DNA of 64,000 nt from Poseidonibacter parvus. Its GTDB lineage: Bacteria > Campylobacterota > Campylobacteria > Campylobacterales > Arcobacteraceae. Each line of letters opens with the position of its first letter. Positions within the stretch are counted from its first letter, which is position 1. The notes under the pieces are model-generated. The model searched no databases, was not told the origin of the DNA, and saw only the letters and a list, made by a program, of their open reading frames with translations. The stretch covers positions 1,736,001 through 1,800,000 of the forward strand of contig NZ_CP019070.1 in assembly GCF_001956695.1 (NCBI RefSeq), read 5' to 3'. Both the position numbers and the translations under genes were made by a program. Below are positions 47,044-50,449 of this stretch, in pieces.

Positions 47044-48243
47044 TTAATGATTAATTATAATTTTAAATATATTATTATCATCAATATACTCATATTCAAA
47101 CTCATAATTATGCATATTCAAGATAGATTTAACAATATAAAGTCCTAGTCCCATTCCATGGTTTTTAGACTCAACATCATTATGAAAGGGCTTAAAATAT
47201 TCATTGATGTCTTTTTGTAGTTTAACTCCCTTTGAAATAAAGATAATTTCATTCTCATTTTGTTTAATTTTCACTTTTCCATCACTTGAATATCTTAAAG
47301 CATTATCAATAAGATTTTTAAATACCATTGACATCAAAGATAAATCAGCTTTTACCTTTTTTTCTTCTTCTAAATTTAAAAATATTTTGTCATTACTATT
47401 TTCTAATAATAATGATTTAAAAGCATCATCAAAAATCAATGATAATGAAATGATTTGCTTAGTGATTTTATAATTTTGAGAAACAACTTGTTCTACTTTT
47501 GAAAAATCATTGATTAAAAAATCAAGTCTTTTAAAAATATTTACCATTCTTCCTTTTTGTTTCTCATCATCAATTAATTCACTAACAATTCGTCCTTTTG
47601 CAATAGGAGTTTTAAGTTCATGCATTATTGTTCGTAAAAACAATTGTCTAGAGTTAAGTAATAATTCAATTTTTCTCACTGCTTTATCAAATTCATTTGA
47701 TACATCAGCAATTTCATCTTTTTTATCACTTTTACAGTTTATTGATAAATTACCTTGAGAGAAACTTGTAATATTTGTTTTTAAATCTTTTAAAGGTTGT
47801 AAGCTTCTAATTAACCAAATATATAAAGAAATCAAAAGTAGTAATAAAAAAACAAAAATAATATAAGAATAATTTGAAAATGAGTACATATTTAAATCTT
47901 TAAACAATACTTGAGTGAAAGGTGTTTTAATATGAAAGTACAAAATATCTTTATATTCTAATAAATCATATTCTCTTTTCATTATAATTGAATTACTATT
48001 TTCCAATACTTCTTTTGGCTTTTCTACAATTTCAAAAGGCAAACTTTTCATATGATTTATCAAATCATATTTATCCATTCTATGTTCTTTTAAATATTTT
48101 GTAATATTTTCATAATATCTTTCGACAACAACATATTTTCGTTTCTTTTCATAATCAATATAAAAAAAGAACAAAGCAATTAAAATAGATATAGAAATAA
48201 GAAAAACAAGAGATATTTTACTAGTTATTGAGTTTAAATTCAT
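47044..48243 (-). CDS. Sensor histidine kinase, ArsS/RacS type
   Basis: A 399-residue two-TM kinase. TM1 about 10-27 and TM2 about 125-145 flank a short periplasmic sensor domain (about 28-124, charged). A HAMP-like linker precedes the H box FLRTIMHELKTPIAKGR (His about 206), N box KNLIDNALRYS (about 308) and G box GMGLGLYIVKS (about 370). The FLRxIMHELKTPI style matches Helicobacter ArsS and Campylobacter RacS. The stimulus is unknown; ArsS responds to acid. The gene overlaps its regulator by 4 bases. Confidence 0.88.
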   Translation of the reverse strand: MNLNSITSKISLVFLISISILIALFFFYIDYEKKRKYVVVERYYENITKYLKEHRMDKYDLINHMKSLPFEIVEKPKEVLENSNSIIMKREYDLLEYKDILYFHIKTPFTQVLFKDLNMYSFSNYSYIIFVFLLLLLISLYIWLIRSLQPLKDLKTNITSFSQGNLSINCKSDKKDEIADVSNEFDKAVRKIELLLNSRQLFLRTIMHELKTPIAKGRIVSELIDDEKQKGRMVNIFKRLDFLINDFSKVEQVVSQNYKITKQIISLSLIFDDAFKSLLLENSNDKIFLNLEEEKKVKADLSLMSMVFKNLIDNALRYSSDGKVKIKQNENEIIFISKGVKLQKDINEYFKPFHNDVESKNHGMGLGLYIVKSILNMHNYEFEYEYIDDNNIFKIIINH

Positions 48244-48905
48244 TGTACTAACTTATAGCCTAAATTACGAATCGAAAATAAGTATTTAGGATTTTTAGAA
48301 TTATCATTTAATTTACTACGTAATCTTCCTATAATTACATCTAAACTCTTACTATAACTATCACTTAAACTTGAACATTGATTTACGATTTGTTCTCTTG
48401 AGACAATTGCATTTTTATTTTCAATTAATGAACTTAAAACCTCATATTCAGCTTGCGTTAAAATAAGTTCGTCATTTTTAAAAGTGATTTCTTGTTTTAT
48501 TTTATTTAAAATGAAATTACTTTTTTCTTCTTCTGGTTTATTATTCTTATTAATTCGTCTTAATAAGCTTTGTATAACTGCATACATCTCTTTTGGATCA
48601 TAAGGTTTAGGTAAATAATAATCAGCACCAGTTTGCAGTCCCATAATCTTATCAGTAATATCAGCTCTTGCACTTGAAATAATAATAGGAATATCATATT
48701 TTGATGATATTTCCTTACAAACGTCAAGACCATCCATACCAGGAAGAGTTAAGTCTAAAATTAATAAATCATAAGAAGAAATCCCAGCACTAAGTCCTAA
48801 ATAAGGATCTTCATAATTTGTAATTTTTATATTATATTTTTCTAAATATTCACCTAAAAAAACTGAAAACTCAGGATCATCTTCAATCATTAAAATATTA
48901 GTCAT
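48240..48905 (-). CDS. OmpR-family response regulator
   Basis: A 221-residue transcription factor. Receiver domain 1-115 with acidic pair EDD (8-10), phospho-acceptor Asp in LLILDLTLPGMDGLDV (about 52), Thr/Ser and Lys in the switch (KPYDP). Winged-helix DNA-binding domain about 130-221 (LTQAEYEVLSSLIENKNAIVSREQI, split at LTQAEYEVL and AIVSREQI; SIRNLGYKL). It pairs with the kinase that follows. Its targets are unknown. The repeated elements at 21291-21327 have the spacing such a regulator could use, but no link is shown. Confidence 0.9.
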   Translation of the reverse strand: MTNILMIEDDPEFSVFLGEYLEKYNIKITNYEDPYLGLSAGISSYDLLILDLTLPGMDGLDVCKEISSKYDIPIIISSARADITDKIMGLQTGADYYLPKPYDPKEMYAVIQSLLRRINKNNKPEEEKSNFILNKIKQEITFKNDELILTQAEYEVLSSLIENKNAIVSREQIVNQCSSLSDSYSKSLDVIIGRLRSKLNDNSKNPKYLFSIRNLGYKLVQ

Positions 48906-48994
48906 TAAATATCCTCATTTTATTTATAAATAGTATATATCACTATAATTAATATTAGTTAAATATAAAGTAAATGAAAGTAAATACAGATATA

Positions 48995-49027
48995 CCTTGA
49001 TATAGTAATTAACTTGCTATATCAAGG
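48995..49027. repeat. Perfect 11-bp inverted repeat at the end of the recombinase-like gene
   Basis: CCTTGATATAG (48995-49005) and CTATATCAAGG (49017-49027) pair perfectly around an 11-nt centre. The right arm encodes the last codons of the recombinase-like protein. On the minus strand it is not followed by a T-tract, so terminator function is unclear; it could be a binding or former crossover site. Confidence 0.7.
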
Positions 49028-49650
49028 GTATTAGGCAAATTTTGTCTAATGTTCCTTTTTTTAACGTAATTATTTAAACCTATATGATTGTTATATCCTA
49101 ATAGTTTTGCAATTTTTCTAACAGAAAGACCAACAGAAAGCAATTCTTCGATTTTATCTCTTTGTTTATCAAACTTAGATTTTTGTATTGTTCCAACTGG
49201 TTTACCTAAACTAACACCTGAAAGTTTTTTAGCAGTAAGAGCTTCTTTTGTTCTTAAACTCATAAGGTCTTTTTCTAAATTAATAGTCATAGAAATCATG
49301 CCTAAAATCATTTGAGTTAACATATCTTTATCGTCTACTAATTCTAAGTTTTGATTAACTACTAATATTTTTATTTTATTAGATAAAAGAAATTTTACAA
49401 TCTCTAAAATTGTTTCAATTGTTCTTCCAAATACGTTCAAATCAGAAACAATAATTGTAGAGTTTTTTTCACAATTTCTAAGTAATTCTAGGATGTTTTT
49501 TTCATCACTTGGCATACTAATATCTATTTCAATATTTTTGTATATATCAATTTTATGTTTATTAACATAATTATCTAATATATCTTTTTGTTCCTGTGTA
49601 TACTTCTCATTATTTTTGTTTAATCTAAGATATGTAAAAACATTTGACAT
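49009..49650 (-). CDS. Catalytically degenerate serine-recombinase homologue
   Basis: A 213-residue protein with resolvase layout: N-terminal catalytic fold (1-125), long helix, then a C-terminal HTH region (about 165-205, EELLSVGLSVRKIAKLLGYN). Aligned without gaps to gamma-delta resolvase, Arg8 is kept (R9) and Arg71 is kept (R76), but the nucleophile Ser10 is Asn11, Arg45 is Glu50, Asp67 is Asn72 and Arg68 is Val73. So DNA cleavage is not expected. It may act as a DNA-binding regulator. An 11-bp inverted repeat overlaps its 3' end. No partner recombinase or mobile element is nearby. Confidence 0.78.
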   Translation of the reverse strand: MSNVFTYLRLNKNNEKYTQEQKDILDNYVNKHKIDIYKNIEIDISMPSDEKNILELLRNCEKNSTIIVSDLNVFGRTIETILEIVKFLLSNKIKILVVNQNLELVDDKDMLTQMILGMISMTINLEKDLMSLRTKEALTAKKLSGVSLGKPVGTIQKSKFDKQRDKIEELLSVGLSVRKIAKLLGYNNHIGLNNYVKKRNIRQNLPNTLDIAS

Positions 49651-49894
49651 GATTTATTCCTTAACATAAAGTATATTTTTAATATATAAGAAAACATAGT
49701 GTTTATTTATATATATTTAAATATTATACATAATGTTATCAAGATACAAATTAAAATAAGCTTAAAAATTAATCAAATTAATGATATATCTTACTTTTAA
49801 ATAGTATGTATTTACACATATACTTATACAATTTGAATTAAAAGCCATTTTTGGATAATATCTTTTTTCATATAGAAAATAAAAAAGGTATCTT
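49651..49894. promoter_or_regulatory. Divergent intergenic region, recombinase-like gene / ubiX operon
   Basis: A 244-base AT-rich region. On the + strand TTGAAT (49833-49838), 17-bp spacer, TAATAT (49856-49861) is a good promoter for the ubiX operon, 33 bases before the ATG. The minus-strand promoter for the recombinase-like gene is not obvious. No palindrome matching the 48995-49027 repeat is seen here. Confidence 0.6.
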
Positions 49895-50449
49895 ATGAAA
49901 ATTACTGTAGCAATATCAGGAGCTAGTGGTGCTAGTTTAGGACTTAATTTTGTTAAAAAAATTCCTTCAAATATTGAAGTTTTTGTAGTGCTTTCAAAGA
50001 GTGCAAAAATTGCATTAAAATTAGAAAATGGAATTTCTGTAAAAAAAACTTTTGAAGATTATAAAAATGTAACAATATTTCAAGACTCCAATATAGCAGC
50101 ACCCATTGCATCTGGTTCTTTTGAGGTAGATAAGATGATAGTGATTCCTTGTTCAATGAATACACTTGCAAAATGTTCTGTTGGAATTTCTGATTCACTA
50201 ATTACAAGAGCCTTTACAGTAATGCTAAAAGAAAACAGAGATATTGTTTTAGCTCCTAGAGAAATGCCTTTTAATTCAATTGCATTAGAAAATATGTTAA
50301 AATTATCTAAACTTGGAGTAACGATAGCTCCTCCTATTCTTGGATACTATTCAAGCCAACAAACCTTAGAAGAAATGGAAAATTTTTTAATAGGAAAATG
50401 GTTTGATTTATTAAAAATTGACAATAATTTATATAAAAGATGGAAATAA
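49895..50449 (+). CDS. ubiX: Flavin prenyltransferase UbiX
   Basis: A 184-residue flavoprotein that makes prenylated FMN, the cofactor of UbiD decarboxylases. Motifs: VAISGASGASLGLNFVKK (about 4-21), APIASGSFEVDKMIVIPCSMNTLA (two pieces, about 68-91), and APREMPFNSIALENMLKL (about 128-145). It is the first gene of an operon ubiX-coaD-tmk-hisS-speA-cysE, an order I recall from C. jejuni. Its end overlaps an alternative coaD start. Confidence 0.93.
   Translation: MKITVAISGASGASLGLNFVKKIPSNIEVFVVLSKSAKIALKLENGISVKKTFEDYKNVTIFQDSNIAAPIASGSFEVDKMIVIPCSMNTLAKCSVGISDSLITRAFTVMLKENRDIVLAPREMPFNSIALENMLKLSKLGVTIAPPILGYYSSQQTLEEMENFLIGKWFDLLKIDNNLYKRWK

Follow-up and report, generated by a model that had tools for sequence, protein, structure and literature searches.

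A predicted cleavage-dead resolvase homologue conserved in Arcobacteraceae, with operator-like repeats over its own promoter

The minus strand of the window (the whole 64-kb stretch of DNA that was analysed) encodes a 213-amino-acid homologue of serine recombinases that has lost key catalytic residues. We consider it likely that this protein is a domesticated, cleavage-dead resolvase that acts as an autoregulating DNA-binding protein, with DNA binding, dimerisation, repression and the control of a second gene all deduced from sequence. A preliminary sequence-only reading had already proposed a DNA-binding, domesticated protein. Its family-wide vertical inheritance, purifying selection that bears hardest on the helix-turn-helix (HTH) domain, a largely fixed locus, and conserved operator-like repeats in common with transposon res regions all argue in favour of that proposal. 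The further suggestion of a regulatory role is kept here as a prediction.

The host genome is a single contig of 2.87 Mb, and its closest named relatives, judged by this protein, are Poseidonibacter species (92% identity). In agreement with the original assignment, the Pfam Resolvase domain matches residues 5–146 of the protein (E 2.7e-16), and an AlphaFold2 model built from 24 sequences (mean pLDDT 84) finds its best PDB match by Z-score in 1gdt, a structure of the complete gamma-delta resolvase bound to DNA (Z 14.2 and rmsd 6.2 over 182 residues). The Pfam match and the comparison with 1gdt reveal the fold of the superfamily, with the resolvase catalytic domain, the long helix E and the C-terminal HTH. 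Its catalytic set of Ser, Arg8, Arg68 and Arg71 is incomplete, since Ser10 is replaced by Asn and Arg68 by Val. The best NCBIfam model, that of the Mpi-family invertases (serine-type recombinases; NF009949), is matched over the full length (E 1.4e-26), but the score of 93.5 bits falls short of the model's cut-off, 272, and the catalytic residues are lost in the window protein. The analysis also corrects annotation, because genes of this kind match recombinase models and a name taken from these would be misleading. The gene had been called single-copy, and this holds for the orthologue; two other Resolvase-family genes are present in the genome, one ordinary and intact (L001) and one a UGA-recoded large serine recombinase (L002). 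No Rfam matches or tRNA genes were found within the 64-kb window.

For analysis of the active site, 81 distinct orthologues were aligned, with gaps, with eight relatives bearing the catalytic Ser. The position of the nucleophile Ser10, N11 in the window protein, is Asn in 74 orthologues, Ile in three, Ser in three and a gap in one. The position of Arg68, V73, is Val in 79, Ala in one, Ser in one and never Arg, while the eight relatives have Arg (seven) or Lys (one). Arg119 corresponds to K127, which is Lys in every orthologue; Arg8 (R9), Arg71 (R76) and Arg125 (R133) are kept in 81 of 81. The changes of Ser10 to Asn and Arg68 to Val and the retention of Arg8 and Arg71, first read from a gapless comparison with gamma-delta resolvase, are thus borne out, and in no alignment does a Ser of the window protein fall on the nucleophile site. 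The change of Asp67 to Asn also exists (N72; Asn in 77 of the 81) but is a weak marker, because six of the eight Ser-bearing relatives have Ser there. In contrast, the reported change of Arg45 to Glu was an alignment slip: a two-residue gap pairs Arg45 with K51, which is Lys in 55 of the 81 orthologues and otherwise variable, and the Glu is the neighbouring E50, invariant in all 81. Tyr17 is present in 80 of 80 orthologues and missing from active relatives, and helix E, through which members of this family oligomerise, has a conservation of 0.87 in the alignment. The C-terminal HTH survives as noted earlier, with 35 of the 59 linker and HTH positions invariant in the 81 orthologues.

A few orthologues do have Ser at the nucleophile site. 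Some make up a nested subclade of three species (L033, L212 and L213) that has Lys for Arg119 and likewise lacks Arg68; the others belong to genus g7, which evolves fast. The Ser looks secondary in both groups, because the subclade is nested within the Asn-bearing clade and the Ser of genus g7 is accompanied by a change of Arg8 to Lys; judging from the aligned residues, the full active site is restored in neither. The orthologues of genus g7 (L087, L088 and L089; genomes of 1.3–1.5 Mb) are 40–43% identical and keep the DNA-binding domain, and the promoter repeats described below were not found in front of them.

In resolvase–DNA structures, Arg8 and Arg68 touch the scissile phosphate, and the S10A form of an activated Tn3 resolvase variant (NM S10A) does not cleave DNA but retains DNA binding and synapsis (PMC4499144). 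Loss of cleavage is expected here and loss of binding is not, because the nucleophile and Arg68 are changed and S10A Tn3 resolvase still binds (PMC4499144). The family-wide loss of both residues supports the view that the protein is probably cleavage-dead.

Homologues are present in 46 of the 49 sampled Arcobacteraceae genomes, three of these 46 being from the divergent genus g7, and in 29 of the 31 genomes of one further-sampled genus. Among 150 genomes of the order, matches of at least 190 bits were confined to Arcobacteraceae; other matches reached at most 142 bits, and those outside the family whose N-terminus was inspected have the catalytic Ser. The orthologues form one clade with a support of 100/100. 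Median dN/dS within the genus and its sister genus is 0.10 for the catalytic domain, 0.07 for helix E and 0.04 for the DNA-binding domain, values that indicate strong purifying selection, most stringent on the HTH domain. Taken together, the sampled sequences support a vertically inherited core gene of nearly all Arcobacter-type bacteria.

At the locus that most genomes share, ubiX-coaD-tmk-hisS-speA points away from the gene on one side and rplI-hslV-hslU follows it on the other (names from sequence); at three loci (L031, L032 and L072) it lies away from the ubiX and rplI-hslVU neighbours. No adjacent tnpA transposase is present, the neighbours being ubiX and rplI-hslVU, and the lack of a transposase together with the mostly fixed locus supports the original statement that the gene is not a mobile element. 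Its position next to a two-component system, also remarked on at the outset, is real in the window but incidental: the pair occurs at the locus in some species only, as a variable insertion missing from most syntenic loci. The C-terminal tail DIAS is kept across many genera though the residues preceding it vary, is absent in genus g10, and could be an interaction or degradation signal. The inverted repeat with which the gene ends is probably a terminator; it was rejected as a binding site, being kept among close relatives only and more terminator-like.

Table 1. Positions in the window of the gene, its promoter elements and its neighbours
Feature	Position	Strand	Basis or remark
Serine-recombinase homologue gene, predicted cleavage-dead, 213 aa	49009..49650	-	ORF, Pfam, model, alignment
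Linker and HTH DNA-binding domain, residues 144-202	49045..49221	-	alignment, dN/dS
C-terminal tail DIAS	49012..49023	-	kept as protein in many genera, codons differ
Inverted repeat, gene 3' end	48992..49031 (arms 48992-49005, 49017-49031)	.	sequence
Asn11 codon, position of catalytic Ser10	49618..49620	-	alignment
Val73 codon, position of Arg68	49432..49434	-	alignment
O1, TAACATTATGTATAA, best conserved promoter repeat	49724..49738	-	overlaps TATAAT at 49723-49728
S1, 31-bp palindrome TGTATA...TAAACA from O1 and O2, proposed dimer site	49700..49730	-	sequence
O2, AAATAAACACTATGTTTTC, second promoter repeat	49690..49708	-	sequence
O3, AATATACTTTATGTTAAGGA, third promoter repeat	49658..49677	-	overlaps ribosome-binding site
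TTTAAG-N5-TTTAAT direct repeat, HP1043-motif-like, candidate site	49750..49766	-	21 bp upstream of TATAAT
ubiX-like gene, conserved divergent neighbour	49895..50449	+	synteny, named from sequence
Histidine kinase and response regulator genes, variable neighbour outside conserved locus	47044..48905	-	synteny

The promoter of the gene contains conserved repeats (Table 1). Of 59 distinct upstream regions, nearly all contain the motif TAACATTTTGTATAA, typically near -88, with more repeats near -55 and -20 in a fixed layout; half-site matches number 117 in the upstream regions versus 21 in mononucleotide shuffles. In most genomes, TGTATAA of the first repeat and an inverted half-site of the second bound a palindrome of 29–31 bp with TGTATA ends. 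The first repeat is retained even at the three loci where the gene lies away from ubiX. The best 15-mer conservation is 13.4/15 in this promoter, versus 12.6 and 12.5 in the control promoters of rplI and ubiX, respectively. Part of the promoter conservation could be explained by the -10 element and the HP1043-like box, a direct repeat of the TTTAAG-N5-TTTAAT type being the motif of HP1043, an essential regulator of Helicobacter pylori (PMC5253667). Conserved operator-like repeats over its own promoter are what an autoregulating repressor would be predicted to have.

The best full-length matches on plasmids are recombinases with 37–42% identity to the window protein. Four of the six plasmid relatives inspected adjoin a Tn3-family transposase, and the plasmid relatives have intact catalytic motifs and a DNA-binding domain near-identical to that of the window protein. 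On these comparisons, the nearest relatives outside Arcobacteraceae are judged to be intact TnpR-type resolvases of Tn3-family transposons (the family of gamma-delta and Tn3), the nearest being those of Legionella fallonii, Moellerella and Ca. Megaera plasmids. The fold, domain order and DNA-binding domain are shared, and tnpR too has a divergently oriented gene in front of it, the two being separated by an array of palindromes with TGTATA ends. Unlike TnpR, the Arcobacteraceae protein lacks Ser10, Arg68 and Arg119, has no transposase and no CG core in its sites, and is encoded at a fixed chromosomal locus.

From position and symmetry, we infer that the regions upstream of the transposon recombinase genes are res regions. 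The Moellerella region contains the 16-mer TTAACATTATGTATAG and its inverse (p 0.001), and that of Cardinium one copy of the 16-mer module (p 0.006). A 30-bp palindrome, TGTATA...TATACA, is present in the Legionella fallonii region (0 of 300 shuffles), and the regions of L. israelensis and Cardinium contain palindromes of 30 and 34 bp, respectively, with TGTATA ends (p 0.03 each). A significant match is absent from the upstream regions of Megaera, Providencia, Persicobacter and Spirosoma, which makes at least four of the nine transposon regions. The Arcobacter sites share ends and spacing with the transposon regions but lack the CG-containing core AACGNNCGTT that several of those have at the presumed crossover site. 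Searches of phages returned distant homologues only, viral contigs contained no relatives of the Moellerella TnpR, and no plasmid DNA resembled the window promoter at the nucleotide level. The Moellerella region itself has relatives of about 70% identity in Providencia and Cardinium; the two on Providencia plasmids (L243:1196-1320 and L244:1193-1320) have no recombinase gene annotated or open directly behind them and are perhaps solitary res remnants.

Further sites were sought with a 33-bp, AT-rich pattern with TGTATA/TATACA ends. The 2.87-Mb genome matches it without mismatch at a single place (G000:C1:1248581-1248613), 537 kb from S1, and the reversed control at none. This place lies between a DUF389 gene and the gene for a 138-aa protein that belongs to no Pfam family. 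In this genus and its sister genus, most orthologues of the latter gene are preceded by a comparable palindrome in the corresponding position, separate from a -10-like block; the palindrome was not seen at L128 of this genus, and in more distant genera the gene is present and the site absent. A genus-wide motif search was weakly above its control, and motif searches gave further candidate places (L160, L161, L165, L168, L171, L172, L176, L180, L182 and L183). The genome has about two strong sites, and because single-motif searches of it remained at background level, the regulon may comprise two sites at most. A large common regulon is unsupported, because the 33-bp pattern has no clear family-wide enrichment, and a large regulon was rejected given the background-level searches and a single perfect extra site.

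In the mechanism that we propose, the ancestor would have been a resolvase related to TnpR of Tn3-family transposons. Cleavage would have been lost early in Arcobacteraceae through the changes Ser10 to Asn, Arg68 to Val and Arg119 to Lys, with vertical inheritance as a core gene since. The two HTH domains of a dimer, held together by the retained long helix E, would read facing TGTATA half-sites about 30 bp apart. Occupancy of the site array from about -90 to -15 before the gene's own start, covering the -10 element and the ribosome-binding site, would bring about self-repression, much as TnpR represses from res (PMC7157771). In this genus, at least one other gene, that of the 138-aa protein, would probably be controlled too.

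The main rival to self-repression is a mainly architectural role, in which cleavage-dead dimers at distant sites would form tetramers that loop or bridge the chromosome, autoregulation being secondary. The good conservation of helix E, the synaptic complexes still made by the dead Tn3 resolvase NM S10A (PMC4499144) and the distance of the strongest second site from the first are all consistent with such a role. However, about two strong sites are few for it, and the synapsing mutant bears activating mutations (PMC4499144), the wild type synapsing poorly without accessory sites. We regard this explanation as unlikely, and see a similarly slim chance that the family-wide core protein pairs distant chromosomal sites as a non-cutting synapsis machine for gene regulation or chromosome architecture.

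Cutting might also persist, either through another residue, such as the invariant Tyr17 that active relatives lack, or with an active recombinase as partner in a mixed complex. The invariance of Arg8, Arg71 and Arg125 and the intact L001 in the same genome would fit this. Against it stand the loss of Arg68 and Arg119, the absence from the sites of the CG-containing core of transposon sites, and the different subtype and dissimilar DNA-binding domain of L001, and we hold residual cutting to be quite improbable. A partnership with the two-component system is suggested by adjacency in the window and contradicted by synteny, the pair being missing from most syntenic loci and the gene kept there; we consider it very improbable. 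Least credible of all is a functionless, decaying remnant: the lost catalytic residues point that way, but dN/dS values of 0.04–0.10 contradict it, reading frames are open across the family, and HTH residues are invariant at high synonymous divergence.

Cells often reuse transposon proteins, and TldR, for example, descended from the transposon nuclease TnpB. A domesticated, autoregulating resolvase would resemble TldR as a transposon enzyme turned transcription regulator; TldR proteins differ in being RNA-guided transcription factors (PMC13418256) and in their unrelated fold. Another conserved, catalytically dead serine-recombinase homologue is F16 of vaccinia virus, listed as a predicted inactive serine recombinase (PMC11980589), which differs in being viral and nucleolus-targeted, with no link to a res-like operator. 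Passages of a review on mobile-element reuse name DNA inversion and integration/excision as functions for which serine recombinases have been reused, give a role in chromosome segregation as lacking evidence, and contain no mention of a non-cutting serine resolvase (PMC8987985). In the open-access literature we found neither a description of the Arcobacteraceae protein nor any account of bacteria that have retained a serine resolvase as a non-cutting DNA-binding protein along with res-like promoter sites. The protein would be a naturally occurring separation-of-function variant of a textbook enzyme, and about a hundred orthologues and a precise predicted binding site make the idea testable.

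Elsewhere in the genome, the L002 frame (G000:C1:2236642-2238219, minus strand; L002:382-1959) corresponds to a large serine recombinase of 525 aa, and 22 in-frame TGA codons are the only stops in it. It is open if TGA is read as Gly, in which case its Gly codons are 22 TGA, four GGA and three GGT. Relatives in two other Arcobacteraceae genera (L246 in G088 and L247 in G093) are 60–62% identical with 23–24 TGA codons each, and TGA stands opposite TGA or GGN in 99 of 134 comparisons. The codon pattern of L002 suggests a gene in which UGA has been recoded to Gly, as it is in Gracilibacteria/SR1, within normally coded chromosomes; no tRNA gene was found near it. In L234:5283-11632 (~2233282-2239631), the apparently recoded recombinase is flanked by a gene for a Hachiman-like helicase (HamB, E 9.5e-73) on one side and by a candidate defence gene of the PDC-S01 type (E 9.5e-137) on the other. 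A 271-aa gene follows the HamB-like gene, and a tyrosine-integrase-like gene is located in the same region.
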